From positions 32,725,686 to 32,789,685 of the forward strand of contig OY987226.1 in NCBI GenBank assembly GCA_963920705.1: 64,000 bases of DNA, written 5' to 3'. The notes beneath the pieces are model-generated. The model saw only the letters and a list, made by a program, of their open reading frames with translations, was not told the DNA's origin and searched no databases. Below are positions 944 through 62,072 of this stretch, piece by piece (position 1 is the stretch's first letter; every line of letters starts with the position of its first letter). Source of the DNA: Odiellus spinosus (Eukaryota > Arthropoda > Arachnida > Opiliones > Phalangiidae). The translations under genes were made by a program, and so were the position numbers.

Positions 944-1259
944 CAAGAATCCATTCAGGTTCCATAAGAATATGGGAGCATAGCTTTAGCCTCTGGTACC
1001 ATCCTCCCAAACTTTGTAACAAAAGTTCGTCCGCAATTTTCGCAATATTTGTACGCTTAGATCTTTTTTCGGTCGGCTCCATTTTTATTACCCAAAATAT
1101 TATGTCAAGGTCGTTAGTGGCGTAGGTTAATAATAGATGTCAGGAGCGATTTACTTGAAAAATCGATTCGAAGCGGACGAACTTTTGCTACAAAGTTTGG
1201 GAGGATGGTTATTGAATCGCGGCCCTCCCATATTCTTATGGAACCTGAATGAATTATTG
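944..1259 (-). mobile_element. MITE family A, copy 1 (CA..TG ends, 7-bp TSD)
   Basis: This is a 316-bp non-autonomous element. It starts CAAGAATCCATTCAGGTTCC and ends with the near reverse complement. The direct repeat ATTATAT flanks it on both sides (937-943 and 1260-1266). About 90 bp at each end pair imperfectly, including the block around AAACTTTGT.GCAAAAGTTC. Copies 2 and 3 (4854-5169, 33533-33849) have the same length to within 1 bp and the opposite orientation. A short open frame inside is repeat sequence, not a gene. Confidence 0.9.
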
Positions 1260-3691
1260 ATTATATCATATAAGTATCCATCCTTTAAGAATAATACGTT
1301 TAATCACGTTAAACTCGGCGTCAGACTACAGCGGCCGCTAACGGGTCCTAAAATAAAAATTCATTAAACTTAAGTGTGGCGCAAGGGATTCGGGTTCACT
1401 GATTTTTGTTTTACTATTTATTATCTGGTGTAAAAACCCTCGATGAAATTACAAAAATTAAGTCTTTAAAAATATAAACTTCAGAGCCTAAAAATATAAA
1501 ATACCTTATAATGGATTTGAAGAAGGAGGAAACAGCTAAGAGATAACACACGTAAACCCTCAGTATACAAGGCGCAGTAACGTCCGCGAGCTTTACTACC
1601 TTAACTATAGAAACTGATGCCCGGAAACGGGGGAGCGGGCCACCTCTTTCGTGAAGAAGCTATCGGCGATCGGAAGGCACCCAAATAAGTTCAATACTTT
1701 CCCGGAGAAGCTCTTGGGTGGAAACTAGATCAATTATACAGAAGGTATAAAATCTAACTACCGATTGGAAACGAATATTCTAAGACGACAAACCATCTCC
1801 TAGTAATCACGCAAAACTCTGAAAAAATTATAAAACTTAGAAAAATAAAGTAAAGGTTCTAAACTAGAAGGAACTTGGTAATTATTTCACTTTCTACTAA
1901 TCAAGATCTTAGATTCTTCAATCTTCCCAAACTTCAATTTAACTTCTACTTCAAACTTAAACTATAAAAAAATCAAACTAAAATTTATGTGGGTAAAAAA
2001 CATTAAATCCCTCACATCTTGAAAATCACTTCGACATGAAGTAAAGAAAAGGGCGGTGTTATTTATAATATTGCTGCATAAATAGCAGTCAAATTTAAAA
2101 ATTTTAAACTTAACGGGTCCACAAAAATATTAATTCAAGTATATCCAGCTTAGAGTTAAACCACGTAATCCCAGTCGTTCCAGTTGATCTAGGGGTCTTT
2201 TATGAGGAACACTATGAAATACTTTTTCTAGTTCAACAAAAATGCCTAGAATACAGTGTGACTTATCAAGTTCGTCCAGAATTACCTTAAAATCACAAAA
2301 AATTGAAAATTCCCAGTTCCGAATTGATATTTCGATAAGAAATGGTGTTTATCACAAAAATAATTCTTTTTAGGAGAATTTTATCAAATATTATTGCAAA
2401 TGTGGATCTGTAGTTAGATTATCCAAGATTATCACCTTTTTTTAAAAACATAAGGGTTATAAGGGCGTGCTTTAGTCGATCTGGATAGATGCCCATCGAG
2501 ATAGATTTATTAGGAAAACGAGAGGAAAAAATAATCCATATGACTCAGGGGAATTCTTTTACTGGGAAACTATTTCCATGTGCAAGATTTATATCTCTAA
2601 ATTGCTTAAGAATGTTCCAATTGATTTCATTGGCTTTTATAGCAATTTATTTATGTACTTTGAGCTAAAATCTCAAATTTTAAGTATTTTTTGCTTTAAT
2701 TGTTTGAATTTAAAGCTAATTGGAATATCTGATACTGCGCTTGTGGTACCAGGAATTTTATAAATAGTTGATCAATACAGATAGACGTATACTTTATTAT
2801 TCTTGTTGGAATAAATATTGCTCTTTCTAATAGCTCGATAAAAGATCTATTATTGAGAGTGGACAATGTATACAAGTATTGAAATGAAAACTGAAAACCC
2901 TGACCAGTTGTTTTTGGGGTTTCCTAGCCGAGATAGTATATTTTCAAGAAATTTGCAGTGTGTGGTCTATAGATAACTGCAAACATATCTCAATAATGTA
3001 ATTTTATTCCATGAGCTTATAACCCAACTCCCCCAAAATGCTCTAAATAACGAGATAGAAGTCTTTCTTGCCGCTTGGCTTTGTGAACTCTGGCATGTGG
3101 TCAAACTGACAGGTTCCGATTCCTGGTGGTCACTATCGAGTGGCAGTCGTTGAACACGCTTGACGTTTCAAATAAAGTTATCGGCTTTTGGGCCACTAGT
3201 GAGCCCCCGGATCCGGAACATCATAAATCAATGCCCTACAAAGGTTAAACCTTATGTTCCTATTTATTATCTATTGTTTATTCTGACTAATATCGGAGAA
3301 GTTTTTATTTTGCTCCTTAAATATTTGTTATCCGTTACTAAAAATGACCAGAAACTCTATTACGCACTTGTTTGATTAAATTGATTTCGTCAACAAAAAC
3401 AAACTTTTAACGAGTAAATGTGCACGAAGGATCAATTGGTGCCTCTACAACAGTTCATAATCCACTGGGGAAATGTCTTGGAGCATTATTAATCGACAGC
3501 CATTAACAGGCAAGGTTCAGAGAGACATTTTAATATTGGGATAAAGTCCGTCATGTGTTTATTTTCGCTTTTTGATCCTTAGTTTATTTCCAAACAAAAA
3601 CGATAAATTGCTTTAAAATTTTTTAAGCAAAGATTTATCATGATTGTTCTAAACAGTATAATATTACAGGAGTTAGAAAGCAAAGCAATGG
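1260..3691. other. Non-coding stretch, nothing recognised
   Basis: About 2.4 kb with only short open frames. The hydrophobic one near 3160-3375 has no family signature, no convincing start and no linked exon. The missing first exon of the downstream neverland-like gene could lie here, but I could not find one with a phase-0 donor and a plausible signal anchor. Confidence 0.4.
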
Positions 3692-4156
3692 CAGGGCTCC
3701 CACCAGGTCCCTAAACCACCATAAAATCATGATTTGGTCCCTAAATCACCATAAAATCGTGATTTTGGTCCCTAAATCACCATAAAATCGTGATTTTTGG
3801 TCCCTGAATCACCATATTTCTAGTAAATTTGGTTAAAAGTACCGTAGTCCTATAATATTGAACCCAAATTACATGCTAAGACGAAAAACTGACAGCGAGA
3901 GAAAATGACTAAGTCAGTATGATATAATATCACGAAAAATGTGATAAAATTAAAGTCAGATTTATGATAAAATGCTTTTACAAAAAAAAAAAACCTACTT
4001 TAAGTCATTTTGTGAAAATTAAAGATCTAATTTCTTCTTAAATTATTTCCTATTTGCTCCCTATTTTAAAAATTTTGGTTCCTATTTCACCCTATTTCTA
4101 GCCTGAAAAATCCCCTATTTCTATATATTTTTTTTAAGATTTTGGTGGGAGCCCTG
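3692..4156. mobile_element. hAT-like short element with 6-bp TSD
   Basis: The 465-bp element has matching ends CAGGGCTCCCACCA / TGGTGGGAGCCCTG and is flanked by CAATGG on both sides (3686-3691, 4157-4162). The opposite arm of the surrounding palindrome (near 7780, minus strand) carries a single CAATGG, which acts as an empty site. CAGGG ends are typical of hAT transposons. Most hAT elements make 8-bp duplications, so 6 bp points to an atypical hAT lineage. Inside, near 3705-3815, is a short tandem array with units beginning GGTCCCTAAATCACC. Confidence 0.75.
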
Positions 4157-4853: not shown

Positions 4854-5169
4854 CAAGAATTCATTCAGGTTCCATAAGAATATGGGAGGGCCGCGATTCA
4901 ATAACCATCCTCCCAAACTTTGTAGCAAAAGTTCGTCCGCTTCGAATCGATTTTTCAAGTAAATCGCTCCTGACATCTATTATTAACCCGCACCACTAAC
5001 GACCTTGACATAATATTTTGGGTAATGAAAATGGAGCCGACCGAAAAAAGATCTAAGCGTACAAATGTTGCGAAAATTGCGGACGAACTTTTGTTACAAA
5101 GTTTGGAAGGATGGTAACAGAGGCTAAAGCTATGCTCCCATATTCTTATGGAACCTGAATGGATTCTTG
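4854..5169 (+). mobile_element. MITE family A, copy 2
   Basis: The 316-bp copy runs from CAAGAATTCATTCAGG to CCTGAATGGATTCTTG. It is flanked by the perfect 7-bp repeat ATAATAC (4847-4853, 5170-5176). The mirrored site in the other palindrome arm (about 6885-6905, minus strand) lacks the element and carries one related heptamer, giving an internal empty-site control. Confidence 0.93.
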
Positions 5170-6092
5170 ATAATACTATATACTCAATTGTGATAATTTC
5201 ATTAAATTTGACCTCAATTACGAATATATTAAGTTGGCTACATCAAGGGGAAGACTTTACAGCTTGCACGACCGACCTTCCACAAATATAGTTGGCTTTC
5301 AAAAATATTAATTGGCCAATTTAGTACATCTTTATCTGAAAACTTCATCAGAAACCGTAATGTTATTTCCCATATACCCGCCACACTTTTTGTCAGATAA
5401 CTGAAATTATCGTTCCCATTTCAAGTGTCCGACCATCCACCGAATTCGAGTTAATAGAGAGAAAAGTAATTTGGCAAATATTTAAGATGACTTTTATCGG
5501 GAATGAGTGCTTCTCATGGTTAAACAAAAATTTGCATAGTAAAACAGTGATCATTTTTATGAAGTTAAGCTGAGCTTTATTAATAGCTATTAAATTCTAA
5601 ACAAGACTTTTGTTTGTTAATCAGCAGAAAGATAACGAATATCCAATGAATTGTGTTAATAGAGTGCTTCTCATGGTTAAGCAAAGATGTCAATGAAAGA
5701 TAAGAAATATGAAGTAAAAGAGAGAGAGAGAGAAAGGTGCTAATAACATCACTTTTAAGCGAGGGCACACTTCTAAACACAATAAGTTTAAAGACTAGCT
5801 TTTAGTGATAAATTTCAAGTTTCTTATCTCGTTCGGTTGGCTTATGAAATTGTTCCTAATTTTGGAAACAAGTTGGCTAAATCTATAGCGTGTTTCGCAA
5901 TTTATGATGGGTGGGATTTGGGCACGTGTACGGTTCAAGTGGCTTTTCAACAACACTCTGTATAAGAAATGAAAATAAAAATATAATTTTCCTTTCCATT
6001 CTTCTAATAAGTTTATTTAAATTCAAATTTCGCTCAATCATATTCCCTCACTAAATCGCTAATAATTAACACATTAACTAGGGTTTAAGTTA

Positions 6093-6267
6093 GAGATCGG
6101 GGTTTGGACAAGAAATTTCTGATTATTTTATCTTTATTCATAACTTAAAATTTTTCGAGGAAAGTCTATGATAAATCCAATGTAATCGCGAATAATTTTC
6201 CGATTATTTTTTTATGATTAACTGATTTACTGATAGTTGTGGATTATTTTGTCCAAACCCCGATCTC
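6093..6267. mobile_element. 175-bp MITE with TA duplication
   Basis: The ends GAGATCGGGGTTTGGACAA and its reverse complement are flanked by TA on each side (6091-6092, 6268-6269). TA duplication suggests a Tc1/mariner-type MITE. It sits in the centre of the large palindrome. Confidence 0.75.
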
Positions 6268-8039
6268 TAGTTTAGGGTGAATTGAACGGGTACGTCTGAT
6301 ATGTTATAATAGGCAAAATTATCGGGCTGAAGAGTATTACCCGAGTAGAAGAACCCTGTGAATTTTATTTCCAAATAATGATAAATAATACCATGTAAAA
6401 CCAAAATTTTGTTTAGAATTTTAAAAGCAAATAATAACGCTCAGCTTAGCTTCTGTTTAACCCTTTGTTACCCATGTAGGCACGTCTAGATTACTTCATA
6501 AACATATTCACGGTTTTAGTATGCAAATCTTTAACCACTAGAAGCACTCATACACGATAAAAGTCATCTTAAATTTTTGGAAACTACTTTTCTCTCTATT
6601 AACTCTAATTCAGTGGATGGTCGGACACTGGAAATGGAAATGACAATTTCAGTAATAAATCTGGCAAAAGGTGCGGCGGGTATCCGAATGGAAAATAACA
6701 TTACGGTTTCTGATGAAATTCGTGTTCAGCTAAAGATGTACTACCTTGGTCAAGGTTGTATATTAATATTTTTGAAAGCCAACTATAATTCCGGAAGGTC
6801 GATCATGCAAGCTGTAAAGTCTTCCCTTGGTGTAGGAAAATTAAAATATTCGTAATTGTGCTCGTATATAATGAAACATTTACAACTGAGTATGATATTA
6901 TTAATCTGTCCATGAAGAATTTTGGCTAACTTCTAAACCTGGTTCTAAGCTTGGGAGAGCTTATTTTTATTTAATTCCCGTGAAACGGACTGAAACATTT
7001 CAGGGATCTTGATTTAAAATTTTAGAGTTTTAAATAAGGACTGATTTTCTAATCCAAACTATTTTTATTTTTGACCTGTTTTATTGCTGCCCTAAAGAGA
7101 GGTTTTTTCTTCGCTCTCTTAGTCGATACTGTTATGTTTGAAAATAGAGGCTTAAATAAAACATCCAAGGGTTTGTAAATAACACTGTATATTAATTTAT
7201 TAATATATAACTGGGTTAACATAATATAATAACTAATGTAACATCTGATCTCAATGACAGCCTGAAGGTAAAAAAATGGGGTTAATCAGTATCATGACAT
7301 AACTCAATAGTTCTTATCTAGTTCAGTTCAGATCGATTCTGTAGGACTAGGGTATAAATAACTAGAGGTCAAAATATATATTACTCTGAAATATACCAAC
7401 AGATACGTTACAATTTCAACTCTGATCCTTTAGATCGAACTTTTTCCTTCGTACGGGAGCCGAGAGAGAGGACAATGGAGCCAGGTGCTCTTCATGTCCT
7501 TGACAATTTTTGGGTTTTCTTTACATTTATTATTATTTTCTCTCAGCTCGCTTCGAAGGGGCATTTTAAAATATCATACAATTGAAACAAGTTGTTCGTG
7601 GGTGGGAGTAACCAAGTTATTTAGCAGTCCATAACAAAATTAAAAAGAAAAACAAAGGATGACTAAACCCTGGAATAAAAACACAAACCAGGAATTCCTG
7701 GTGTGTCGTAGAACTAACCAAAAAATTTAACAGGATCCAAATAAGACTCGCGGTACTCTCACGGTACACGCGACACCTCACCATTGTTTATAGCTTATAA
7801 AATATGCAAAAAGCATCTTATTATAAAACTTATCCGAGCAAACCACGCAAGACAATAGCTACTAATGCTCAGACTAGCCCGTGTATGGCGTCAAGAAAAG
7901 ATCGAAATTTACATATGGCAAATCAATGTAAATTTTAGAGAAAACCATGGCACCCTTATTCACCGCTAGTTGAGTTGCGAGCATCGTAAATTTTTAAGCC
8001 TGGTTTTGCTAATAAAACCATTTGATTTATATTTTCTAG

Positions 8040-16599: not shown

Positions 16600-16980
16600 G
16601 CGACGTCGGAGTCTATATCGCTCACAACTTGATCCATTAACAGTTACTTCTTAAATTAACCGAGCTTAATTTAAAATGCGGCTCAACTTGTGTATCTGCC
16701 AAAACCGCTATATACAGTGTGATCTTTATTTAAAACCTACAGTAACAAAACAAATGCAGCGTGACAACTGTGATTTTATGTTTAACGCATCGAATTAAAC
16801 AAATGCGGTAATTATTAAAAATAAAATTAACACTAATGATTCATCTAAGGATGATACAACGGCGAGCACCATTGTCAGCAGTTGCAAAACTCATCTACGT
16901 AATTAATTAAATTTACCAAAATAGTATGCATATGCCTAGTTTTGATTTGACATCCTCCATAATCCCCCTAAAACCCTTAA
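16600..16980 (+). repeat. Dispersed repeat R1, copy 1 (uninterrupted)
   Basis: About 380 bp match the reverse complement of 61055-61389 plus 62038-62072. The copy at 61 kb carries a 641-bp insertion that this copy lacks. Here the target heptamer occurs once (reverse complement of GTAACTG, near 16640). An (ATT)n microsatellite follows at 16980-17000. Confidence 0.85.
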
Positions 16981-17604: not shown

Positions 17605-18480
17605 AAGATCAGAATCAGGGTCCATTAACTTGGGTTGGCACAGGAGGAGAAAGTAGAAAAATCTATACTTTTTCAGCTCCAAACAGTCAAATACCCGAGA
17701 TTATTTACCCTTTATAGACATTGATAAAAAATATACAACAATTCGTAGAATGCTATGTACTGTCATAGAGACTTTTATTATAGGGAGTAGAAACTCCTGC
17801 CTTTGGCAAGGCAAAACGAGATGTAGCTCCCCAAGCAACCTTTGCCAATGCTAATAACTGGCCGGGCCAACTTCCGGTCACATGACATCACCCCGCGTTA
17901 GAGGAAAGCTATACCGGAAATCGACCCGGCCTTTCACAACGGTTGTTTTGAGCTACATCTTCGCCTCAACTTTCCACTCCCTATATTAAAAGTCTCTATG
18001 GTACTGTCTTATCTTTTTTAAACAATAGCATGGTGAGTTAGTATTTGTTACCTTTCGCTCTATTACTTCTAATATCTAATTAAACAGAGTGTTCGCTGTT
18101 TGTTCAACAACATCGATATATTTTTCGATTGTTCAACCTTCTTTTGCAGCACTTACGAAGCCACAAACCCATCTATCTCTTATCACTGCCTTGGTTAAGA
18201 TATATTATAGATAGAGGGAATCCAATCTAGTCGCCCAGTGCCTTCTTAGTTGCGCTTTAGCCTTATCAAAGTTTTATTACAATTGCTCAACCTTCTTTTG
18301 CAGCACGTACGAAGCTACAAACCCATCAATCTCTTATCATTGGCTTTCTTATTACATATTATAGATATAGTGGGAATCCAATCTAGTCTCCCAATGCAAG
18401 CTTAATTGTTTGAGCGAAAACGAATATTCAACATGAAAATGTATATGCCACGGTCTTTATTTCTCACGATTAGTCTCACT
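17605..18480 (+). repeat. Dispersed repeat R2, copy 1
   Basis: It starts near CAGAATCAGGGTCCATTAAC and is paralogous to 38024-38600. It contains two sub-copies of a module with TTTTGCAGCAC.TACGAAG and CACAAACCCATC. A family C MITE is nested at 17764-18000. No open frame of note. Confidence 0.8.
17764..18000. mobile_element. MITE family C (CA..TG ends, 7-bp TSD)
   Basis: The 237-bp element has ends CATAGAGACTTTTATTATAG and CTATATTAAAAGTCTCTATG. The perfect 7-bp duplication GTACTGT flanks it (17757-17763, 18001-18007). The paralogous site in repeat R2 copy 2 (near 38205-38212) lacks the insertion. It holds GGTCACATGACATCAC at 17876-17891, related to the CRE-like motif in families B and E. Confidence 0.93.
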
Positions 18481-22559: not shown

Positions 22560-25344
22560 TCAAATTTCATAAGCTTGTTTTTTTATTTGGTTTCTAGCGA
22601 CGATGACTTAACTAGAGTGCAGCGAATAGAAATGGAAAGAAACCGCGAAAAAACGTAGCCATTCTCACTCGAATTCCGATTACGTTCGTTATTTGTATTG
22701 CCGTTTTACGAAAATAGCTTTTTTATAAAAGCTATGAGATAAGATTTAACCGCGACCAGATATCCGGATTGGGCATTCGAATTAACGGGCTCAGAGATAA
22801 TTTGTTAAAAGGAAAACTTGGAGCTGAAATTTATTTCGTCCCGAGGCCAATAAAAAGAACAACCCAAACTGCCCATAGGAATTTGGGTAACGTAATGTTA
22901 AAATTACGAACAGACGATCCGACTGCAGCCGACTCGAATGGCCTCCGTTTAGCGAATCTTTATTGGGTCACTTAAAGGCCAATCATTGAAGCAGATATTT
23001 ATTTTTAAAACTCGAAATGCCGGGAAGCAAATATGGCGTTCTTCTAGGAACGTAAATTTCGGTTTTAAAATGATATTTATAAATTAACCAAGACTTAAAT
23101 CACTATAATGTGTTTTGATTTGTAGGTTTTTAAGCATGCTCTTTGCAATGGAAGTACTTTTAAAGTTGGGTTGCCTATCCCTTTAAGTTTTCTGGATTGA
23201 ATTTGAGGTTTTTCAACCCTAACGCCAATTTCCGGCTTCCTCGACACTCGAGGAGCGAATTAACCTCAAAACATTCGCGTACGATTAAGTTTAATATTAA
23301 TATTTTGATCTGACGAAACTTAAACTTCTGTAATTATAGCCAACTGAAATCCTAAACTACAATTTGAAGAATATTAGTATATCGGAGATATACTAATTAG
23401 CGTTTTATCTCCTTCCGTGGCTGGTGCTGGGGATTACGCCCTAGAATCGGAACTCCGATTTATTTTCGAACCGACTCTCGAAATGACACGTATTTAAAAA
23501 AATTGTCATTTTTGGTTTCCACGGTAACGTATAGATCGCTTTCTGTATCTCCAACATAAACGCGAATAGTTTTAATGGCGATTAAAGATCGTCCAAATAT
23601 TTTAAAGGGAAACCCTCTCTTTGGTTTAACTTCGGAATTCAAGGTCCTAAAGAACGATTTAGAAACGTCAAAGGGCTGTCGATTTGACGCGTCATCTTCG
23701 GGCAAACGCGAACTCCATCGATGTGTTCAAAAAATCCCGGTCCTTTGTCAACCGCGACTTGGAAAGTTCGAAGTAGAGACCCGAATTTTAAGGAGCTCCC
23801 TTCACCACGCGAATCAGTTTTAAGCGGGGTCATACAGGACCATGTTTGGGGTCATCCGTAGTAACTCCCGCTATTTTTCGACTCACTGCGGACGAGCGGG
23901 CCAGGATTCGTTGGCTACTTTATTTACCCAGCGGTTTTTACAGCTCGAGGTCGCCACCAATCGTCAGTTTTCGTCGTTTCTCTCTCGCTATTTAGAATCT
24001 TAACTAATATTAGCGACACTTAGAGTAAATAAGTGTTTTGTTTTTTATTCTACGTCACATTTAACGCTTTTTAAGCAACGTAGGCGAATCGCTATAGCGC
24101 GGAATCGAAAAGCTATTCGATAATTCGTCATTAAAATGAATTTTTGGGAATTTCTCCCATAAGACGCGATTGGGAGAAATATAAATTGGGAGAACGTTTT
24201 TGGGCGAAGCGTCTCGAACCCGAATACCAATCGAGTCAAAATTCGGCCAATTAATAGTATGAATCCAAAATTCGTAATTTAGGGTGACCGGTTTCCGTTT
24301 ATAAAATTTGGGGAAATTGCGAGACTCGCCCTTGACGCGATTAAAATTACCAGTCGAGTGACGACCTTAGAAGAAGCGCGAACTGTCGTAATGAAACCCA
24401 TTTTTCAACGGGAAGAGAGGTCAATTCCGAGATTGAAACTGTCCTATAAAATAAGATTCATTTCCGAGTATTTGAAACCACACGAAGGAAGTATAGTTGA
24501 TAATGTTTTGCGAGAGCCGCTAGAGACGAAACGAACGAGAATGTTTGGGAAATATACGCCCCGTATTTTCATTTCAAACTCTACTTATTTCCAATTAAGT
24601 CCCTAAAGAACGTCGAGGTGCTTAATCGACCCGAGTCATTTGAAGTCCAGTTTAATAACGAGAGCCGCTAGAGAAGCGAATAAGAATATTTGGGAAATAT
24701 ACGCCCAATATTCGTTTTCATTTCAAATTTGACTTATTTTCGAGTTCCTTTAGACCTTTTAGGGGGCTTAAACGGACGCCGTAACAGCGCCGAGTCATTT
24801 AAAGTCCATCGTAGTAATCAGAAACTAAAATCTCTACCCCAGGTATCGGACATTTGACCCGGTTCGGCCTATGATTCTATTTTTAAACAGCTGATCCCCC
24901 ATGGAATCTTTACTATCTGATCTTTACCAAAAGTCAGTTTTAAAAACTGCAGCGTGAACCGAGTTTTATTAATTCAAATTTGGAATTAGTTAGAGTGATG
25001 TTTTACAATCAATATCAGTGTTAATAAAATTATTTCGTGTTTTACATTACTCGTGCCACTGCCTTCTGTAATACTAGGCCACGAAATGCCAACTACATCT
25101 TTTTTCTTGACATTTTTAATTTGCAATATGTCCGAGATAGATGGCACTTTCCTGATGTATGAATAGCCAATCGCGAGTCTCGCGTCGCCAAGAGCCAATT
25201 AGATAAGACTCTATCGAAGTAAGATCGTAGAACTCCTAGCGACATCTAGGTGATAATGTAGAGATCTTGATTTAAATTTACGATTTGATTTAGAACTTGC
25301 TTTTAATGTAAATATTTAAAAATCACTGTTTAATAACCTAAATG
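22560..25344. other. Gene-poor stretch upstream of the receptor pseudogene
   Basis: This should contain the receptor's N-terminal exons and promoter if they survive, but none could be identified. Minus-strand frames near 23460-23833 and 24986-25198 are open but match no family I know. A hairpin AGCTTTTTTATAAAAGCT lies near 22719. A tandem duplication is described separately. Confidence 0.4.
24505..24810. repeat. Two-copy tandem duplication, about 149 bp
   Basis: GAGAGCCGCTAGAGA followed by TTTGGGAAATATACGCC occurs at about 24511-24562 and again at about 24660-24710. The flanking 150 bp are also similar (CGAGTCATTT.AAGTCCA in both). The copies have diverged by substitutions. Confidence 0.7.
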
Positions 25345-25348
25345 GTGT

Positions 25349-25486
25349 GTTCCCATTTCGCCCAAATATTTCGCCCAAAATTATCTATTCCCATTTCGCC
25401 CAATTGTTAGGTTAGGTAGGGTTAGGTTAGATTATTTGAGATTGGGCGAAATGGGAATTGGGCCAAATGTTTTGGGCGAAATGGGG
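25349..25486. mobile_element. TTCGCCC-type MITE with TTAGG core, short copy
   Basis: The ends TTCCCATTTCGCCCAAA and TTTGGGCGAAATGGGG form an inverted repeat. The centre is TTAGGTTAGGTAGGGTTAGG. A longer relative lies at 51486-52140. No clear target duplication was found. Confidence 0.65.
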
Positions 25487-26309
25487 TAAATTAAATCCGA
25501 ATTAATTTATTCTCCGTTATTAACCTAAAATTCGTATCTATTTTTTTAGTTTTCGGCCTACATTTGAATTTCCCGCTTTTTTTTAACCTGAAGAAAGCGA
25601 CGTCTAACGATATTTTTGAAATCGGTAACGCCACCCCCTTGCTTTTCCTACGGATAGGCATTGTATTAAAGAAGGCAGTGCTCGTACCAACCGTGTTGGT
25701 TTTACGTTTAATTTACAATATAGATTTATTTTCCTATCCTAACAAATTCCATTTTTTCCTCGAATTTTTTACGAGGGGTCGAATGGACTAACTGTTCGAG
25801 GTGTTTGTATCGTTATATTAGGGTTCCAACTCTATTATTATCTTAACATTTCACGTACGATATAGGTGCATTCTGTTGTAAAGATTATACGCTTTCAATT
25901 TCTTCAGCGCGAACTCGACTAAATTAGGAATCGTTTCGTGAGAGTTTTATTAACTCTCGTGACGTTTTACAATCAATATCAGAATCAATAAAATGATTAG
26001 GTGTTTTTACGTAATGACATATATTAGTTTCACATTCAATTTATAATAAAATCCGTTATGATCATTAAATAACATTTCGAGGGAAACTCGTCTTAATTTG
26101 CAGAAACTATTAAATTCTAATAAATTTATTAACCGTGGTATTTTCATTAATGAAAAGGATATTTCGTGGAATAATATGAAATATATTAATGTCACGTTAA
26201 TTATATAATTAACAATATGATTACAATATTTCGACTCAATATTCATATATCAAAAATGTCTTTGCGAACAAAGACCCATGTTATGGCCTTGAATGTCTGA
26301 AGTGACAGA

Positions 26310-30764: not shown

Positions 30765-31099
30765 CAGAAGCCGATGAAACCCTCCTTTGAAGTCTACTAC
30801 TCTAATGTCCAATAAAGCGCTCCTCTCTGTATGGGTAAAATTCACAATTTTACGAGATCGGAGGGGTACTACTTCATACCCCTGTCTACGGAAAATTGGA
30901 AATTCTCCCTCCCCATAAACGACGACGTTTTTTTTGACGAACTCCAAGGTTACTAGAGATATTCGCTGGACGAACTCCCGCTCCGAAAATATCTACCGTT
31001 AGGAGGCGTACGAATCGCGCTTTTTGAAACTAACCCATACAGAGAGGGGTAGACAAGACCCGGGAGTAAGACTTCAAAGGAGGGTTTCATCGGCTTCTG
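30765..31099. mobile_element. MITE family D, copy 1 (CA..TG ends, 7-bp TSD)
   Basis: The 335-bp element has ends CAGAAGCCGATGAAACCCTC and its reverse complement. The perfect duplication GGCATAC flanks it (30758-30764, 31100-31106). It is homologous over its length to the copy at 48740-49077. Open frames inside are repeat-derived. Confidence 0.93.
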
Positions 31100-31775: not shown

Positions 31776-32026
31776 CATGGGCCAAGAAACGATAAATCCA
31801 TGACATGACTCTTCCCCGTTTGAGGGAATAAAATTCTCGGTCGGCCAAACAAACAGCCTTGGTACAGCGTGTGACGTCATATGACGTCACTTTGCTCCCA
31901 AAACGCCATAGCTTTGCTGTACAAACTTGACCCCAAAAAGCGTCATCACGGTACGGTAATGACGTAGCCCGTTTCTTTTAGTAGACGCTAGAGTCATGTA
32001 ATGGCTTTATCGTTTCTTGGCCCATG
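31776..32026. mobile_element. MITE family E (CA..TG ends, 7-bp TSD)
   Basis: The 251-bp element begins CATGGGCCAAGAAACGATAA and ends TTATCGTTTCTTGGCCCATG. It is flanked by GTTCTAC and GTTATAC (6 of 7 match). It holds a perfect 20-bp palindrome at 31871-31890 made of two TGACGTCA octamers. Confidence 0.88.
31871..31890. promoter_or_regulatory. Double CRE-type palindrome GTGACGTCATATGACGTCAC
   Basis: Two TGACGTCA octamers separated by AT form a perfect 20-bp palindrome inside the family E MITE. TGACGTCA is the consensus for CREB/ATF-type bZIP factors. It could equally be an internal transposase-binding site. Related motifs lie in families B (61489-61507) and C (17876-17891). Confidence 0.6.
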
Positions 32027-33532: not shown

Positions 33533-33849
33533 CAAGAATTCATTCAGGTTCCATAAGTATATGGGAGGGTCGCGATTCAATAACCATCCTCCCAAACTTT
33601 GTAGCAAAAGTTCGTCCGCTTAGAATCGATTTTTCAAGTAAATCGCTCCTGACATTATATTATTAACCCGCGCCACTAACGACCTTGACATAATATTTTG
33701 GGTAATAAAAATGGAGCCGACCGAAAAAAGATCTAAGCGTACAAATGTTGCGAAAATTGCGGACGAACTTTTGTTACAAAGTTTGGGAGGATGGTACCAG
33801 GGGCTAAAGCTATGCTCCCATATTCTTATGGAACCTGAATGGATTCTTG
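33533..33849 (+). mobile_element. MITE family A, copy 3
   Basis: This 317-bp copy runs from CAAGAATTCATTCAGG to CCTGAATGGATTCTTG, in the same orientation as copy 2. It is flanked by ATTGAAG and ATTGACG (6 of 7 match). Confidence 0.92.
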
Positions 33850-34650: not shown

Positions 34651-35131
34651 CATGGGCAAATTATACTGTAGAGGGACCCAGGACAAAATCGCAGCTCCAT
34701 AGTTTTTTTGCTTGAGATAAAAAATTCCCGGCTATTATTTAGTTTGCTGTAGGACGCGTAGGACATGGCGCGTTGGTCGAAGTATCTAGACGTAGGGAAG
34801 AGATTGGTTCAGCCGGGAGTGGTGGCATCTCAGTGGCAAGGTCTGGGTATTGTCCTGATCGAATCGCAGGTCCCTTGACCATAGGGAGTGTTGCGAATGG
34901 TCCGCAACGGTATGGTCCTTCCTCTTCCCCTTTCCCTCCTCCATCCATCGCGTGGGCACTTCCCAGTCCTCTTCCCTGTGTAGTCCCTTAACCCACATGT
35001 TCCCGCTTCCCCCTTCCCAAGACCGACGACCAAAATTGCACGGGCTCAAGGCGCCTACAGCCTGCAGTTAATGGGCAAATTATACTGTAGAGGGACCCAC
35101 GACAGAATCGCAGCGCCATAGTTTTTTGCCC

Positions 35132-35165
<34 letters not shown>

Positions 35166-35275
35166 AGAGAGAGAGAGATGGGTTCACTGTAGGACAAACT
35201 AGAGGACCTCAAATCGAAGTGCCTGGAATTTAGAAACAGTCGCTGTGGGTCCCTCTACAGTATACTTGGTCCATG
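34651..35275. mobile_element. Element family F (CA..TG ends, 7-bp TSD)
   Basis: The ends CATGGGCAAATTATACTGTA and TACAGTATACTTGGTCCATG are flanked by the perfect duplication GTAGAGG (34644-34650, 35276-35282). An internal second copy of the left end begins at about 35072 and reads into a poly(A)-(GA)n tract at 35135-35180, so the element is composite or rearranged. Open frames inside overlap one another on both strands and lack family features. Confidence 0.88.
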
Positions 35276-35626: not shown

Positions 35627-35762
35627 CAGAAGTAGATGAAACCCTCCTTTGAAGTCTACTACTCTAATGTTCGATATAGCGCCCCTCTCTGTATGGGTAA
35701 AATTCCCAATTTTACGAATTAGAAGGGGTCCTACTTCATCCCCCCTGTCTACGGAAAATTTT
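35627..35762. mobile_element. Truncated family D MITE, copy 3
   Basis: It starts CAGAAGTAGATGAAACCCTC and follows the family D left half to TCTACGGAAAA, then passes directly into a tandem array. The right half and right duplication are absent. Confidence 0.8.
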
Positions 35763-38023: not shown

Positions 38024-40040
38024 CAGAATCAGGGTCCATTAACACGGGTTGGCACAGGAGAAGCTAGAAAAAGTCTTTGGTTCTTCAGCTCCAAAACAGT
38101 CAAATACCCGATATTATTTACCCTTCGTAAAAACTGATAAAAATATTCAACCGACACTTTACTTATTTTCGGTCTTGTATTAAAAACAATTCGTAGAATG
38201 CTGGGCACTATCTTTTTTAAAGATAAGCATAGAACCTGTGTGTATTTTTTACCTTTTGCTTTATTACTTCTAATATCTAAATTAACAGAGTATTCCCTGA
38301 TTGTTCAACTTCTGCCTATCTCTCTATTGCCTCTATTTATTTAGACATATTTTTTACGATTGTTCACCCTTCTTTTGCAGCACGTACGAATCCACAAACC
38401 CATCTATCTCTTATCATTGCTTGGTAAGATATGTTATAGATATTAAGGGAATGCCTTCTTAGCTATGATTTAGCCTTATCAACGTTTTATTACGTTTGTT
38501 CAATCTTATTTTGCAGCACGTTCGAAGCCACAAAACCATATAGGCATATCTCTTATTATTGCCTTTAGGCGTTGTTTATTTATACCAGAAATAGATGAAC
38601 CGAAATTATCAACGAGCTATTCCTCTAACGCCACAGGCAAGTTCTCCTTTTCCCCTCTCTTAGACGACAGTTGTAGCCCCCTCCCCCGCGGAATTTCGCC
38701 TAGCCGAGAAACGTTGAATGCGCCACCTGGCTTGGTTTGCAGCCGTCGCTACGTGGGGCGATCAGTTTCCCAAGATCCTCCTCGGTATTTCATTGAGGCC
38801 GAGGAAGCCCATTCCCCCAGTGCTTACCCTCCCCATTCACTCCAAATAAAATGCATTTCCCAATCTAAGCTCTCGTTGATAATTTCGGTTCATCTATTTC
38901 TGTTTATACCCAATCACGATTTCATCAGAAAATTAACATTATTTTGCCTATATGAGGCGCCTTTTTTGTCTGATCATACTTTTTATCCCTTGGAAAATAG
39001 TTAATAGAGCAAAAGGCGGGGAGGGAAACAAACCGTGAGAAATCAAGACCGTTGAAAATATATTTTCATGTTGAATAGTTTTTGTCCCGTTGAAAAGAGT
39101 TAATGGAGATAAAGGCGGGGAAAGAAACAATTCATGAGATTAGATTGGATTCCCACTATATCTATAATATGTAATAAAAAAGCCAATGATAAGAGATTGA
39201 TGGGTTTGTGGCTTCGTACGTGCTACAAAAGAAAGTTGAACAATTGTAATAAAACGTTGATAAGGCTAAAGCGCAGCTAAAGGGCCTTTCACACCAGCCA
39301 ATCTTTAGCTCCAACTAGTTGGTACAACTAATCGGAGCAATTAGTTGGTCCAACTCCACCGCTCACACACTTAAAAAAATGTATAAAAATTTTCCTTAAA
39401 TTTTTATGAACAGCCAATCATTAAGGGTTAATGTGATGTCATAATTTTCGCCACTCCCTGTCTTTTTTTTTTTTTTGGTACTTTTTAAATAATCGCGGCC
39501 GAATTTTTGCGGCTTATTTTTAAAAATTATGCGCGGGCGCCACCTAGCAGATATCGAGTGAAGAACTAGAGAGACTCAAGAGAGGTCAGACTCCTGGGTT
39601 TCGCGACACAGTTATCGTTTATTTAATTGCACTTGAGGATAAATAGAAGTTTAATTTCACACTTTTATGTGTTAACGTACCTTCAATTTAGAATTAAAAC
39701 GATATGTCCAGCAACCAGCCCAATCAAAAAGAAGATGGCTACCAGAAGACCGGGATTATTTTTATGACCGGAAACTAATTCCTATCACGTGACGGAGAGG
39801 TCTCTGATTGGTCAAACTCTTAAAGTTGGCGCGACAAGTTGCCATGAAATTGGGTCAGCAACCCAATTTTTTCAGGACAATTTTAATTTTGCCAACTCCA
39901 CCAATTTTTATTCACACGGAGCAACTAGTTGGGGCAATTTGAGTTGGCACAACTAGTTGGAGCTAAAAATTGGCTGGTGTGAAAGGCCCTTAAGAAGGCA
40001 TTGTACGACTAGATTGGATTCCCTCTATCTATAATAAACA
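38024..40040. repeat. Dispersed repeat R2, copy 2, expanded and interrupted
   Basis: It begins CAGAATCAGGGTCCATTAAC as in copy 1. Modules with TTTTGCAGCACGTACGAA recur in both orientations (about 38370-38540 and 39190-39270), so this copy is itself a partial palindrome. A Harbinger-like element splits the right arm at 39281-39990. Short open frames near 38714-39004 are not coding by any evidence I can see. Confidence 0.7.
39281..39990. mobile_element. PIF/Harbinger-like element, 710 bp
   Basis: The ends AGGGCCTTTCACACCAGCCA and its reverse complement are flanked by TAA (39278-39280, 39991-39993). The paralogous stretch in R2 copy 1 (about 18240-18265, minus strand) reads GCGCAACTAAGAAGGCA with a single TAA, an exact empty site. 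TAA duplication fits PIF/Harbinger. No transposase domain was seen. Confidence 0.88.
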
Positions 40041-47200: not shown

Positions 47201-50200
47201 CGGTCGTTATTTTCGGTCAAGTGGGAACCTAGCTTTAGGGTCTATTTGATTTTCCTCTACACCCTCCCTTTAACTAGCAAAAATCCGTGAAAAATCCCAG
47301 AATTTATCTAGAATTTTTTAGAATTTTCCAGAATTAATGTTCCAGTGAAGTGTTCTCGACTCTCCTAGAATTTTCTCGAATTTTCCCGAACTTTCCAAAC
47401 GTTTTTACATTTTTCTATACATTTCTATAATTTTCTAGACCTCTGCAGACTTTTCTGGAACCTTCTAGAACATTCTGGGAAAGGTTAGGGACATTGTAAA
47501 TTAATGGTGTTTCATTAAAGATTTGGATCATCGTTTTGTGGATGGCCGCTATTGCTCTGGGCCTCGTTGATGTCTATGGGATTTACAAAGCTAATTTCGA
47601 TTTAACTACTAGCGTCTTTTACTATAGTCTATCTCGAACGGCTTGGGCTATTGCTGTATCTTGGGTCATCTTTGCGTGCCTAACGGGGTACGGAGGTCAG
47701 TTAAATCGTTATTATTTTTTAAATCTATTATTTAATATGGCTTTAAAAGCGTACAATTTTAATGTGGCACTATACCATATGTAGCATAAGTTCTCATAAG
47801 TATGTCAATGATGGAAACTTTTCACTACCACCTTGTTAAACGAAAATGACGTCGTATTCCCCAAATTACGAACTTTACGTCATCTAGGTCACTCCCGGAA
47901 AACGGAAGGCACGATATCCATACCAGGGACGGAAATAAGAAAAATATTTATTGGACGAATGTCCAGTAACCCCCCCCCCCTTAACAAATTCTAAAGTTAC
48001 CGGACATTTAAAAAAATTACCAGACATTGGCAGATTTCCTGTATTAAAAAGTACTTTTTCTTATCGGACATTTGTCCAGTGACCCCCTCTTAAAAATAAA
48101 AAGTTATCGGACATTTTGGAAAATTTATCGGACAATGTCCAGTGTCTTGGGCTTATTTCCGTCCCTGATCCATACGCGATAGTATAATCTGCATGTACAG
48201 TGCTCGGTTTAGGTATAATATGGTTTTCAAATTATGGCCTAGATGAGAATGTTTTATCAATTGCTAGAATGTAACGAAGATAGTTGTTTTTGCTCTAAAT
48301 ATTGTTTCACTACTTTGAGTTAGATATTGCAACCATTTTTAATGAATTTTGGTCAATCTAGTACTCAGTAACTGCGTAAAAATGTAAATGATTCTTACCC
48401 GCGCAAAAAAAAAAAATCAAAAAATTAATAAATGGAGAAAGGAGTCTTCGTATGATCGCGACAGATGGCGCCAGGGACTCTATACAAGCTTCCGCCAGAG
48501 AGAGAGAAAACTCAACTGTCGAGGAAGTAGGAACATAGGTGTCACGAAAATGGGTGTCCAGATAATTTATATTAAAGACAATCATTTTCCAAATAATTTA
48601 AAATGGTTATTTTTACCGAAACTGGGGTACGATTATTCTCTAAATTATGTTGGTTTTTAATTTTTCAGCCTCCTTAGCGAACGGTCGCTTCATCCGTTTC
48701 ATCCAAAGGCTGAGCCCTATATTTGTATTATCGTATGATCAGAAGCCGATGAAACCCTCCTTTGAAGTATATTACTCCCGGGTCTTGTCAACCCCTCTCT
48801 GCATGGGTTAGTTTCAAAAAGGGCGATTCGTACGCCTCCTAACGGTAGATATTTTCGGAGCGGAAGTTCGTCGAGCGAATATCTCTAGCAGCCTTGGAGT
48901 TCGTCAACCAAACTTCGTCGTTTGTGGAGAGAGAGAATTTTCAATTTTCCGTAGACAGGGGGGTATGAAGTAGGACCCCTCCGATCTCGTAAAATTGGGA
49001 ATTTTACCCATGCAGAGAGGAGCGCTATATGTAACATTAGAGTAGTAGACTTCAAACGAGGGTTTCATCGGCTTCTGGTATGATCTTTATCATATATCAT
49101 TTAATATCTCTGCTTTATAAAACCATTAGCATTTAAATTTGTTACAATATTTAAAATTTTTAAAATTCAATTTGTTAAATTATATTAAAATATTTTAAAA
49201 AAATTTTAAAAATATAAAATATTTCGAAATTTCAAAATTTTTAAAATTTTAAAATATAATTTAAGAAATATAATTAGGCTTTGTTCGGCTTAAATGATGT
49301 TTTAAATTGATTAAACTTGACTTCAGTATCGCAGAAAATTTATTAAAAGTTGTGCATTCGATATAAAAACTCTAGCTTCTATAGTCAAGTGCCAAGTGTA
49401 GATTGCATCAAAAACGTTTTTCCAGTGAAGTTCAATATTGTGTGTCTGTTCGCTTCAGCTTTTTACGTGGAGTGATGACGTCATCACTCAACGTTATAGA
49501 AAGATAGCTCGAAATACAGATGTAGTTGGGGGAAGGAACGTAGCTTTCAGCGCGTTTACTCCCCTTCGCGTCGCTCCAAAAAAAAGGCCAAATTTTTCTT
49601 GTTACACCCATGTTTTCGTCGACAGTTGAGAGTTTTCTCTCTCTCTGGCTGGAGTCCCTGGCGCCATCTGCCGCGAAGACTCCTTTCTCCATTTATTTAT
49701 TTTTTTGCGCTGGTAAGAATCATTTACATTTTTTACGCGGTTACCGAACACTCGATTGACCATCATTCCACGTTTATCCAGACTCTCTGGATACCTCTTG
49801 TTTCATTTGCTAACGTTGCGTGTAAACTTTAGCGTTCAGACCGCAGACAGACTGACGTACATAGAGAATTATTGTGTATCATATATTAATATGACCAAAT
49901 TGACAGTACTTTACAACGCCTATAATAGTGAAATAATTAAAGACATTTATTTCCTTATTAGGTCCGGTTGATAAATTTTTGTCTTGGAAACTTTTTTTCC
50001 CACTGGGTCGTCTGACATATTGCGCCTATTTGGTTCATCCCATAGTAATGTTCTACTACTATCAAAACCATCGTGCTCCAGTAATGGTTACTAACACTTT
50101 CATCGTAAGTTAATATTTAAATATTGTCGTAATTATTAATGTCTGGAGGCAAAACCCCGCCGCTCCAGAGTTTTTTTTGGAAACTTCAAAACTAACGCTT

Positions 50201-54184: not shown

Positions 54185-54195
54185 TCTAACTACAT

Positions 54196-55589
54196 CTACT
54201 CTCTGGGTTTAAACCAATCATTCTTTCGTGTCCAACCGAATAGAAGGGCGACGAAAAGGTTGACGACGGCAAAGAGATAATACAAGTAAGCGTAGCTTCC
54301 GTAAGTGTCCCGAGACAGACCAATCAAAAATGGCAAACAAAATTGAGCCACGGATAAGGTTGCCGTGGAGAAACCCATTGACACGGCTATCTTAGACGTG
54401 CCTAGAGTGGCTAAACCTGGTACGAGGCAGGCGCTGCTAACAGCGTAAAACGTTGAAAATAGGCAGGCCACGATGACGTAAACAGCGTTATTGGTTAGCG
54501 TCAAAAGCAAAAGCGTCAATGCCATAAACACGCTGGCTAAACCGATTAGAGTTTCGACGGAACACAATTTGGAATCCAGAAGCCAAGCGGTCGGAATACT
54601 GGCCAAATCAACGAAGGCTAAAACTTCCAAAATGTACTTGTTCAGACTCGGTTCCAGGTTAGTGTCGATTCCGTAATCAACGATGGTCATTCGGAAAGCG
54701 ATATTGGTCGTGAGGCTAATGTTGTAAAAGAAGCACAAGGCGTAGAAGTTTTTGTCACGAAGCAAATTAAATAAATCAGTTTTAAGATTATTTTCGCTTT
54801 TAGCACCTTTTTCGTGTTGGATATCGGGTAATTCAGATTGTTTTGTTTCGAGGAACGAATTAAGTTCTTGTTCGGAGATTGGGTCTCGGTCCTTATTGGT
54901 TTGACGTTGTACATGACGTCGTGGTCTTATAATCAGAGCGAGAAGTAAGGTTTGACAATAAAGTGACCCGTGAATTAACCACGATGATTCCAGTCCGTAT
55001 TTCTCAGCGGATGTGACGATTATTGAAGGTAAGATTAAGCCCGAAAGACTGGAATTAGCCGTAAGTACCATAAACGCTTTGGCCAAGTGTCTCTCGAAAT
55101 GCGTCGAGACGACTTGAAATATAGGCGGAAAAGTCATACTGCAACCGATTCCTAAAAACCATTTCCGCGTAAATTCATATAATCAACAAAAATACGCCAC
55201 AGGCGCGCGTTAGACTTCTCACCTCTTACGGCCATGCACACCGTGAGCCACGTAACAGGGTCATCCAACGGTCTGAAAACGGACAGACACGAGCCGAGCA
55301 TTCCTAGAAAGGTCTCCAAAATCAAGGTTTTTCTGGTTTTCAAACGGTGATAAATCGGGCCACTTAGGCATGAAAAAACGCAAGCGAAAAGAGCGAAGGT
55401 ATTCGTTGGATAGGAGGCTACTTGTTTGGTGACGTCGTATCGTTCCTGAATAAGGACGAAGATTACTCCGGAAGAAACGTGGTAACCAACGTTAAAAACC
55501 AAATAGAAACAGCCGCATATCGCTATGAACCAGGAATAGAACGAATCCATCGAAGCATTATCTGGCGAAATAAACCTCAACACTCCCAT
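54196..55589 (-). CDS. SLC16 (monocarboxylate-transporter-like) MFS protein
   Basis: Two exons on the minus strand, 55589-55223 and 55151-54196, are joined with a 71-bp intron and encode 440 residues. The family moves monocarboxylates, amino acids or related solutes across the plasma membrane; the substrate cannot be told here. About twelve hydrophobic helices are visible, split by a polar loop near residues 205-250 as usual for SLC16. Helix 1 reads SWFIAICGCFYLVFNVGYHV, followed by SGVIFVLIQERYDVT and SYPTNTFALFA. GIGCSMTFPPIFQVV spans the splice junction and matches the family's helix 4 region. The usual DGGWGW motif before helix 1 is replaced by a SFYSW-type sequence, so this is a divergent member. 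The ATG at 55589 is the first plausible start; an acceptor-like TTTGTAG about 50 bases upstream suggests a 5' UTR exon. A MITE abuts the stop codon. Confidence 0.9.
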
Positions 55590-56048
55590 CGCTCTTATGG
55601 CGAGATGAATCTCGAATCGCAGATCTACAAAACTACTATCTTTAACTCTGAGCTTAATCTAATAAAAATATTTAAACAATTATGCGTGAAACTTACGCTA
55701 TTCCACTTACAACTATCAGCGGTTTGTTATCTTAGATGTAGAAGGAGCCTTACAACGCGTACTTGAGGGTGCTGACTCTTAATTCGCTGAACAAGGGATT
55801 TCATTGAATTCAGCTTTTCCCACGAATTGAGAGTTCAATAATTTTGTTATGAACCGACCCTTTAAGATGAACTTCATAGCAAACTAAATTTCGAAGCCTA
55901 ATCTGAAATATGAATACCTAGTTTATAACATACATTTAGGCAGAGTTATTTGTGGAGTGTTTGGATGAAAGGCACTGACGATTTAAATTTATATGTCCAT
56001 TGAAAGTTGTGTTGTTGGTTATCAGTGTCGTTATATTCAAAGTTTTAA
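55590..56048. other. 5' flank of SLC16-like gene, nothing recognised
   Basis: This should hold the promoter and any untranslated first exon of the transporter gene, but no core promoter element stands out. Confidence 0.4.
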
Positions 56049-56447
56049 CAGAGGTATATAATAACCCCCTTCGGGGGGAAGTATGAAAGGTAGACAAAAT
56101 CGACGAACAACAAGTGCCCGGCGTAAATCTCGGCGGATCGACACACCGCTTTACTCCCAAAAAATAGTTACACCATTTTGAACCTCACTTAATTTTCCCT
56201 ACGCGAGCTGAAGTCAACCTTCGTCTCCAATTTAACAGACAGCCTGAGCTGAGACAGGAAGTTCTAAACACAAATCGAGCAGTCTTGTTTATACAAAGAC
56301 CATTTACTAGAGTAGCGACATTGAGAAGTCCAGCGCGAGCTAGTTGCCTAGATAGTCAGCAGCGGGCTCTTGTTGTTCGTGATTTTTAGCATTGGTAGTA
56401 TAGGGGCTTTCATACTTCCCCCCGAAGGGGGTTATTATATACCTCTG
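56049..56447. mobile_element. Element family G (CA..TG ends, 7-bp TSD)
   Basis: The 399-bp element has ends CAGAGGTATATAATAACCCC and its reverse complement. The perfect duplication GTTTTAA flanks it (56042-56048, 56448-56454). The subterminal CCCCCTTCGGGGGG forms a small hairpin on each side. No coding potential recognised. Confidence 0.93.
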
Positions 56448-59850: not shown

Positions 59851-61054
59851 GGGGGGGGGGGGGGGGTGAAATCAGTGATCCCCTTTCAAATCTACATTCG
59901 TAATTAAAACTTAAAATTCATGATTTAAACTCATTAGCGTAAAATTGATTTTGAGATTTTAATTTAGTCGTAGATTTTCGAATATGAGAAATTCCGATTT
60001 CAAGGAACGGCTTGTCTATTCTAGAACTTCTTTGCCAACTGATTGCTAAGAATTAGTCACGCCTTTCAAATATTTCAAAACTCAAATCAAAATTCTTTCG
60101 TAACCAAAAAGAAACCAATGGCAAAAACCACCGTAACCATGGAACGATTAACAATTGCTAGAAACAGTCAAAATAAAAATTTGACTTAGAACGAATAAAA
60201 ATTTCTTGTTATATAGATTTTATGAATTATTTATAGCGTCTATAAAACCAGAAGCGGAATGGATATCAAAATTTCAGATGCGTTTCCTACCTGCGGCTTG
60301 TCAGTTAATGTAAGCGGTTCGTAAAGATGCTCGAGAGTACCGATTCGGAACTTTATATCAGTGTAGCTCAACGAAACATTTAATCGAGTGGCTCAAACAA
60401 TTCTCGGAAGCGAATAAATTGGAACTGATATTGAGCTACGATAGAATAGATAATGAATGCTGCGAATAAGCAAAGACGTACCTTTATTCGACGTACACCT
60501 TTAGAGTGGTTTCTACTGTGGACCGCAAGCTACGCAAAATCACGGTACAACTCGCCTTCAAAGATCAATCCTTTAAAAGTTGCTCTTCAGATTAACCGGA
60601 ATACAATACTGTAATATGATAACATTGTTGTATACATCCGGTATTATCGTGTTAAGATCAAGGCTTAACTTACTTGGATCAGTTTTGACTCCGTTGTTTG
60701 TTAAGAAGCTTCTTCTCTTTTATTTGGCATTCTATTTATTTATGTGGGAAACTTTAGCTAACCCTGCGATTCTGTGATTCCCTTTTTTCTAAATGTTTAT
60801 TTATCATTTCGGCACCCTAATATTTTGTCGCCCTGAAATGTAAAACCGAATAACCTCGAAAATCCCAGCAGACATCTCTAAGGAGGAGTAAGGAGGGAAG
60901 AAAACAATACTAAAAGAAAAAACCACGATAGGTAGAATTCGACCATAGTAGGAGGAAGTAGTAGCTAACACCAGATTCGAATGGTTTATTTTACTCGTAT
61001 TTGTTTCCAAGTCTTCATATTTCTAAAGCAGGTTTTAGGCAAGGTTCGTAAAAA
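59851..61054. other. Intergenic, nothing recognised
   Basis: AT-rich sequence with short open frames such as 60580-60777, which is hydrophobic but lacks family features. No element ends were identified. Confidence 0.4.
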
Positions 61055-62072
61055 TTGGGTTTTAGGGAGATTATGGAGGATGTCAAATCAAAACTAGGCA
61101 TAGGCATAATATATTCGGTAAATTTAATTACGTAGGTGATTTTTGCAACTGCTGTCAATGGTGCTCGCCGTTGTATCATCCTTAGATGAAGCATTAGTGT
61201 TAATTTTATTTTTAATAATTACCGCACTTGTTTAATTCGACGCGTTAAACATAAAACCACAGTTGTCACGCTGCATTTGTTTTGTTACTGTAGGTTTTAA
61301 ATAAAGGTCACACTGTATATTGTTGTTTTGGCGGAGACAGAAGTTGAGCCGCATTTTAAATTAAGCTCGGTTAATTTAAGAAGTAACTGCATGAATTTAT
61401 ACATCCCACATGAATATCCAATTGTAGCCTTACCCCATAGTCCATTCCCAAAAGGTAATAGGAGGAGCCTAATTTTCCCGCCAAACAAGTGACGTCATGT
61501 GACGTAATTTCTCGAGCCAATAAAAACGAAACCGGAGATGGAATATTAGGGGGCTGGCTTATGAGGGAGAAAAATAGAACTTATAGAAGAGTGGCTATAT
61601 TTTCGTACGTTTCGGTTTGTTGAATTTGTTCACCGATTTTACTTAAAATTAAGATATTAAAAGGCTAAAAAGTTTGAAATTAATTTTTATAAAATGACGG
61701 AATAAAATCCCGACCTCCTAAACGCAAGTTTCTTTATTTTTCTTAAATTTTTTTACACTCTTATTCGTGGATTTCGTTTGAGAATCATTTTTCTTTTTCT
61801 TATTCATTATAAACTTCAATTTTAAGTATCAATTAAAAACGTAAAAATAAAGCGCATTAGGAAAATAGGAACATGAGGCCGATAGGAATTTAACAACAAC
61901 ACGTCGTCTGCTACTATCTAACAGAAAAAAAAACTGATTCAAATTTCCGCCATAGGCTCCACCCATCCCCGAAAGGGAGGCGACGCGGTATAAGCCCGAT
62001 GGATATTCATGAGGGATGTATAAATTCATGGTAACTGTTAATGGATCAAGTTGTGAGCGATATAGATTACGA
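61055..62072 (-). repeat. Dispersed repeat R1, copy 2, interrupted
   Basis: 61055-61389 and 62038-62072 together match the reverse complement of 16600-16980. The 641-bp family B element separates them, with duplication of 7 bases at the break. Confidence 0.88.
61390..62030. mobile_element. Element family B (CA..TG ends, 7-bp TSD)
   Basis: The 641-bp element starts CATGAATTTATACATCCC and ends GGGATGTATAAATTCATG. The inverted repeat extends about 33 bp imperfectly. The perfect duplication GTAACTG flanks it (61383-61389, 62031-62037), and the uninterrupted R1 copy has that heptamer once. It carries GTGACGTCATGTGACGTAA at 61489-61507. No transposase frame is present. Confidence 0.95.

Follow-up and report, generated by a model that had tools for sequence, protein, structure and literature searches.

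Short transposons with CA..TG ends and 7-bp target duplications in the harvestman Odiellus spinosus point to one transposase branch, perhaps P-like

A stretch of 64,000 nucleotides from the genome of the harvestman Odiellus spinosus (hereafter the window; C2:32725686-32789685 of a 443-Mb assembly in 286 contigs) carries short elements of several families that begin with CA, end with TG and are flanked by 7-bp target-site duplications. These are non-autonomous cut-and-paste DNA transposons that resemble miniature inverted-repeat transposable elements (MITEs), measure 237-641 bp in the window and belong to at least nine families. The view that one branch of transposases with a 7-bp rule stands behind all of these families is well supported. 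We also incline, with moderate confidence, to the view that this branch is P-superfamily-like, of the 7-bp type represented by 1360 and Galileo and not of the 8-bp P type that is also found in this genome.

Ten insertions with shared ends and duplication length

A preliminary description of this DNA had listed ten insertions in seven families (A to G). On re-reading of the raw sequence all ten coordinates were exact, and every insertion starts with CA, ends with TG and has a 7-bp duplication (perfect in eight, with one mismatch in two) as well as near-identical terminal inverted repeats. Family A comprises A1 (944..1259, 316 bp, minus strand, reversed relative to A2; duplication ATTATAT), A2 (4854..5169, 316 bp, plus strand; ATAATAC; its inverted repeats, 87-91 bp long, are imperfect and 82% alike) and A3 (33533..33849, 317 bp, plus strand; ATTGAAG/ATTGACG, one mismatch). 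Family D is represented by D1 (30765..31099, 335 bp, plus strand; GGCATAC) and D2 (48740..49077, 338 bp, minus strand; GTATGAT). The other listed insertions all lie on the plus strand and comprise C (17764..18000, 237 bp; GTACTGT; inverted repeats of 30 bp), E (31776..32026, 251 bp; GTTCTAC/GTTATAC, one mismatch), F (34651..35275, 625 bp; GTAGAGG), G (56049..56447, 399 bp; GTTTTAA) and B (61390..62030, 641 bp; GTAACTG). A scan of exact duplications from 4 to 11 bp caught five insertions (B, C, D1, D2 and G), and the longest duplication is 7 bp in each of them.

The boundaries of B and the length of its duplication are established by an empty site, because both flanks of B match an element-free paralogous repeat on the reverse strand (16641..16906) that carries a single GTAACTG.

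Two further plus-strand copies in the window were absent from the preliminary description. One is a truncated D copy found by BLAST (35627..35760), whose left end is intact directly after the heptamer GCATTAC and whose right end is lost at a 26-bp tandem array; the other is family I (38586..38902, 317 bp), with ends CAGAAATAGATGAA and an exact TTTATAC duplication. A new family, H, was found elsewhere in the genome (L002:8750-9755; CTACCAT; perfect inverted repeats of 44 bp). Families A to G are thus retained, but the set of seven was incomplete, as I and H make nine. In the eight families measured (A-H) the inverted repeats are at least 30 bp long. Family J (25057..25680, 624 bp, plus strand) is a tentative candidate, with ends CACTGCCTTCTGTA and CACTGCCTTCTTTA and flanking heptamers CTCGTGC/CTCGTAC (one mismatch). 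Three other candidates (5434-6619, 48462-49670 and 50419-50612) were rejected, their apparent duplications being read as continuations of inverted repeats.

The families had been described as unlike one another inside, which is not entirely accurate. An internal motif of the GTGAYGTCATRTGAC type is common to B, C and E, and CAGAA...GATGAA ends are common to I and D; both are weak signs of kinship. Element F is composite, since its positions 173-410 are a separate repeat that matches 39 other places (among 40 scored) and it contains a run of 28 A; it also holds a second copy of its own left end (F 421-477). This suggests a retroposon that inserted into F or acquired a piece of it.

Like MITEs, the elements are short and have inverted repeats, and the scanned window frames hold no transposase domain: Pfam detected none in 97 of the 110 open frames of at least 75 amino acids, the other 13 of which overlap tandem arrays. 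At gathering scores Rfam gave no match in the window. A pattern CA-N-R-R-R, with purines at positions 4-6, runs through the ends of families A-I, with one A1 end departing from it. It was spotted after the fact and does not discriminate, because both the hAT-like CAGGGA and the CATAGA of an 8-bp P family (both described below) fit it, while J and the zebrafish element Pdre2 do not.

Controls for chance

We scanned the window for exact duplications flush with CA..TG ends whose inverted repeats match over 14 bp with no more than three mismatches. At 7 bp there were eight such structures, with one more at 6 bp, one at 8 bp and none at either 5 or 9 bp, while 200 dinucleotide shuffles gave 17 structures in total at 7 bp and never more than two per shuffle. 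When all 16 terminal dinucleotides were allowed at 6-9 bp with at most two inverted-repeat mismatches, only CA scored (seven structures at 7 bp and one at 8 bp). The scan is able to detect other lengths, since it found the 8-bp structure at 47924-48167, a short element of 244 bp with ends CAGGGACGGAAATA (CAGGGACGG..) and an exact duplication ATCCATAC. We take this element to be hAT-like from the terminal consensus of that superfamily. A further hAT-like element with CAGGG ends and an 8-bp duplication with one mismatch is present in record L005 of the genome sample. Separately, an element at 3692-4156 has perfect CAGGGCTCCCACCA ends, a 6-bp duplication (CAATGG) and a 31-bp tandem array inside.

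Copies elsewhere in the genome

A first look at the whole genome gave 2,085 candidates for D, 1,120 for G, 322 for E and 124 for C, with only 40 scored per family. Among the matches listed for C are 39 other full copies, 97-99% identical to the copy in the window. The count for F is unusable because the middle of F is a separate repeat. Both 30-bp junctions were examined for 30 copies (ten of D, ten of G, five of C and five of E), the highest-ranking in each list with window copies excluded; they are therefore the copies most like those in the window and not a random draw.

An exact 7-bp duplication flanks 26 of these 30 copies, including all five of C and all five of E. Nine G copies are exact and the tenth has 7 bp with one mismatch. 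For D, seven copies are exact at 7 bp, two are without a duplication, and one has an exact 8-bp duplication (ATAAATAT) in an AT microsatellite. This last copy is the only one in the sample that fits the 8 bp of hAT or of the 8-bp P type, so the mixture of lengths, mostly 8 bp, that the preliminary description had named as counting against its proposal is not what these copies have. A copy of A outside the window (L014:275-591) is flanked by the 7-bp CATATAC, inside an AT repeat.

An exhaustive scan for inverted repeats in a 200-kb sample of the genome was dominated by tandem arrays. Family H comes from this sample. One candidate from it (L003:8393-9669) was rejected as an element; its palindrome runs on into the flanks. 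Another structure (L003:962-2742) has an exact 7-bp duplication and a poor inverted repeat.

A palindromic target site

Forty insertion sites were pooled: 11 from the window, 27 from the 30 sampled copies (the three D copies without a 7-bp duplication being dropped) and one each from the single A and H copies. After symmetrisation, their logo is the palindrome TNA-GTWNWAC-TNA, with T in 66% of sites at position -6, A in 49% at -4, G in 45% at -3, T in 84% at -2 and either A or T at -1; the central position shows little preference. The target preference hinted at in the preliminary description is thus real, palindromic and close to the targets of Galileo and 1360.

Sites were scored against AGTANTACT, which combines the Galileo heptamer with the flanking base of the P/1360 motif, both as published. 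The window sites score 49/80, a value that is not independent, because the motif was chosen after the ten window sites had been seen. The sampled genome copies are independent of that choice: ten D copies (including the three without 7 bp) and ten G copies each score 43/80, where about 22.6/80 is expected at random window positions and none of 100,000 draws reached 43. Copies of C and E score 18/40 and 21/40. Over the pooled sites the mean is 4.33 of 8 against 2.26 expected, with none of 50,000 draws as high, and the sites fit the 1360 and Galileo heptamers about equally (3.30 and 3.35 of 6). Measured without a motif, palindromicity was only weakly significant at the ten sites of the window (p between 0.007 and 0.075).

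A long element with family B ends

Allowing two mismatches, a search with the B end pattern found 23 forward and 23 reverse matches, 45 of the 46 being exact, whereas the reversed control found none. These ends pair into 21 elements, with four left alone. Nineteen of the elements measure 194-686 bp; the other two have lengths of 1,373 bp (C1:3264157-3265529) and 5,410 bp (C1:13961906-13967315). The longest has exact B ends and an exact GTGAAAC on both sides, and an 8-bp duplication fails there by six mismatches. For C, pairing of the ends among the first 100 of 182 pattern matches gave nothing longer than 819 bp.

Within the 5,410-bp copy, 460 central bp and 30 bp at each junction were covered, which is under a tenth of its bases. 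The central piece holds a minus-strand open frame of 101 amino acids running from an acceptor-like site, TTTTTTCAG, to a donor-like site, AAG-GTAATA; with these boundaries it resembles one exon of a gene that undergoes splicing. It may belong to a transposase encoded by the B element itself.

P-type transposases and the assignment of the 7-bp branch

Transposases of the P type combine a THAP domain with an RNase H domain that carries a GTP-binding insertion. Relics of such transposases are abundant in the genome of O. spinosus: with 150 of 152 candidates scored and matches accepted at E up to 0.001, PF21789 (the P-type RNase H C-terminal domain, 35 positions) has 71 matches, as opposed to none in 14 control genomes. 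A THAP9_C domain is present in two of four P frames tested, one of which has a marginal match to the structure of the Drosophila P transposase (6p5a, E 0.0085). One P family was delimited from two copies (C4, 4,426 bp; C11, 4,393 bp), with ends CATAGAYATATGAAAA (CATAGAYATATG); the C4 copy (C4:15756685-15761110, L042 plus L028) is a P-type transposon with both ends and a THAP9-like C-terminus. The 20 best P loci were examined together with flanks of some 1.5 kb to either side; two of them are shorter than the usual 3.1 kb. Ends were sought in the P loci L022, L024 and L036/L038 and none of these loci was delimited, a single 3' end and no 5' end being recognised in L022.

Duplication length and target motif together point to the 7-bp branch of the P superfamily; a GT..AC target alone would be insufficient. 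Galileo, a P-superfamily element of Drosophila, has 7-bp duplications with the palindromic consensus GTANTAC (PMC4168063). The elements described here resemble it in duplication length, in their palindromic target and in the many non-autonomous copies (PMC4168063, PMC2775673) but differ from it in that the inverted repeats of Galileo are long and repetitive. For 1360, or Hoppel, of the D. melanogaster P superfamily, the duplications have a modal length of 7 bp (274 of 279 insertions) and the target is GTTNAAC (PMC3276498); the likeness to 1360 concerns length and target. The Drosophila P element, like the elements here, has a palindromic target (GTCCGGAC), but its duplications are 8 bp, as are those of hobo at GTNCGNAC (PMC3276498). 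The CA..TG ends fit the P superfamily, as Pdre2 illustrates, without being specific to it, as the hAT-like elements of this genome also begin with CA.

Dada elements, which the preliminary description had named as a candidate, have duplications of 6-7 bp and are nevertheless unlikely to be involved. They are described as elements that have no terminal inverted repeats and insert into genes for small RNAs (PMC3706591), in contrast to the inverted repeats of families A-H and the lack of any Rfam match in the window.

Several observations weigh against the assignment to the P superfamily. The delimited P family has exact 8-bp duplications (GTTATAAC on C4 and AATGGAAC on C11), so it coexists with the 7-bp elements. 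Duplications of 8 bp are also reported for zebrafish Pdre2 (ends CATACCTGTCAAC..), and for the P-MITEs of Anopheles gambiae, short families like those here, whose ends derive from particular P subfamilies that are thought to move them (PMC1562414). A GT..AC target is not unique to P elements, given that hobo, a hAT element, has one with an 8-bp duplication, and at position -6 our sites have T where the published P/1360 motif has A. In the 20 P loci, a search for A-I ends with at most two mismatches in 14 gave four matches, none of which resembles an element end. The longer elements that the preliminary description proposed to look for do exist, in the form of the 5,410-bp B copy, but for its central 101-aa frame Pfam yields nothing up to E 1; nor has the frame a tblastn match to the P loci examined, and its only match in PDB is to an unrelated protein at E 1.7. 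The scored PF21789 entries likewise include none inside this copy. The missing P match is the main result that speaks against simply assigning the branch to P. It falls short of being decisive, because under a tenth of the copy was covered, a domain of 35 positions may have diverged or be interrupted by an intron, and the frame may not be part of the element's own transposase.

Other explanations

The same missing match favours a different source, namely an undescribed, non-P lineage of transposases that acts on CA..TG ends, leaves 7-bp duplications and is encoded by elements such as the long B copy. That copy combines exact B ends and an exact 7-bp duplication with the lack of a PF21789 entry, and its central frame has no Pfam, credible PDB or P-locus relative. 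The limited coverage and the possible splitting of so short a domain blunt this argument, and the target motif corresponds to that reported for P elements with 7-bp duplications; we consider such a lineage a real, though less likely, alternative. It is with the same reserve that we would have an undescribed lineage, represented by the 5,410-bp copy, giving rise to the many short elements (such as the D and G candidates of the first look) under one rule.

Convergence of unrelated superfamilies on CA..TG ends and 7-bp duplications would account for the differences in inverted repeats among families, to none of which a transposase has been assigned. It is improbable in view of the 7 bp found in copies of all nine families, the single palindromic target recovered both from the separately sampled D and G copies and from the pooled sites, the internal motif common to B, C and E, and the similar ends of D and I; a strict 7-bp rule is not known from any other superfamily with inverted repeats. 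Slightly less probable still are hAT elements with a duplication shortened to 7 bp. Elements of the hAT superfamily begin with CA or TA and the hobo target resembles ours, but the hAT-like elements in the window and the sample (47924-48167 and L005) keep CAGGG ends and 8 bp, and most families here do not fit the hAT terminal consensus. As to chance or an alignment artefact, AT-rich DNA often contains short direct repeats, and the D sample includes one 8-bp copy in a microsatellite and two copies without a duplication. The empty site of B, the shuffle control and the 26 exact copies refute this explanation, to which we give next to no credence.

Other features of the window and the genome

An inverted repeat at 26277-27766 has 222-bp arms that are 99% complementary, 36-bp tandem units and an 864-bp centre, and sequence pairs resembling it occur in L010 and L014. 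Dispersed arrays of 15-16-bp units of the TTGCGCAGTTTCCCAT type lie at 14782-14920, 41791-41964 and 53786-53900; CCTAGCCTGTCCCTCTTG and GTTAGG repeats adjoin some of them, apparently as parts of one composite repeat family. Host genes are present at 54196-55658 (MFS/monocarboxylate-transporter-like) and 62888-63292 (ML domain), and further frames of the window match Rieske/KshA_C and NRF domains. On C1, the region at 5.0-5.39 Mb (L002-L021) is largely a tandem array, and only eight of 21 sampled records passed a complexity filter.

Proposed mechanism and significance

In the mechanism that we propose, a transposase would bind the inverted repeats of its family and excise the element, whose 3' ends would then be joined 7 bp apart at a palindromic TNA-GTWNWAC-TNA target; repair of the 7-bp stagger would produce the duplication. 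One transposase lineage had been proposed for all families. A single 7-bp branch agrees with the evidence; since the inverted repeats differ between families, several cognate transposases of that branch are likelier than a single enzyme, a situation paralleled in Anopheles by P-MITEs with the ends of particular P subfamilies. Each inverted-repeat family would have its own cognate transposase, which would move the short copies in trans, and long elements such as the 5.4-kb B copy may encode it.

Duplication length serves as a superfamily label for transposons, and the P superfamily is split in this respect between 8 bp (P, Anopheles and zebrafish elements) and 7 bp (1360 and Galileo). In the literature consulted, the 7-bp P type is described only from Drosophila. 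Were the elements of O. spinosus of the P type, P-like systems of 7 bp and 8 bp would occur together in a second genome, and one could ask what region of the enzyme determines the stagger. If they are not, a further superfamily would be hidden behind abundant short elements. In either case the 5.4-kb B copy, with its 7-bp duplication and its short relatives with exactly matching ends, provides a concrete handle on the transposase that moves them.

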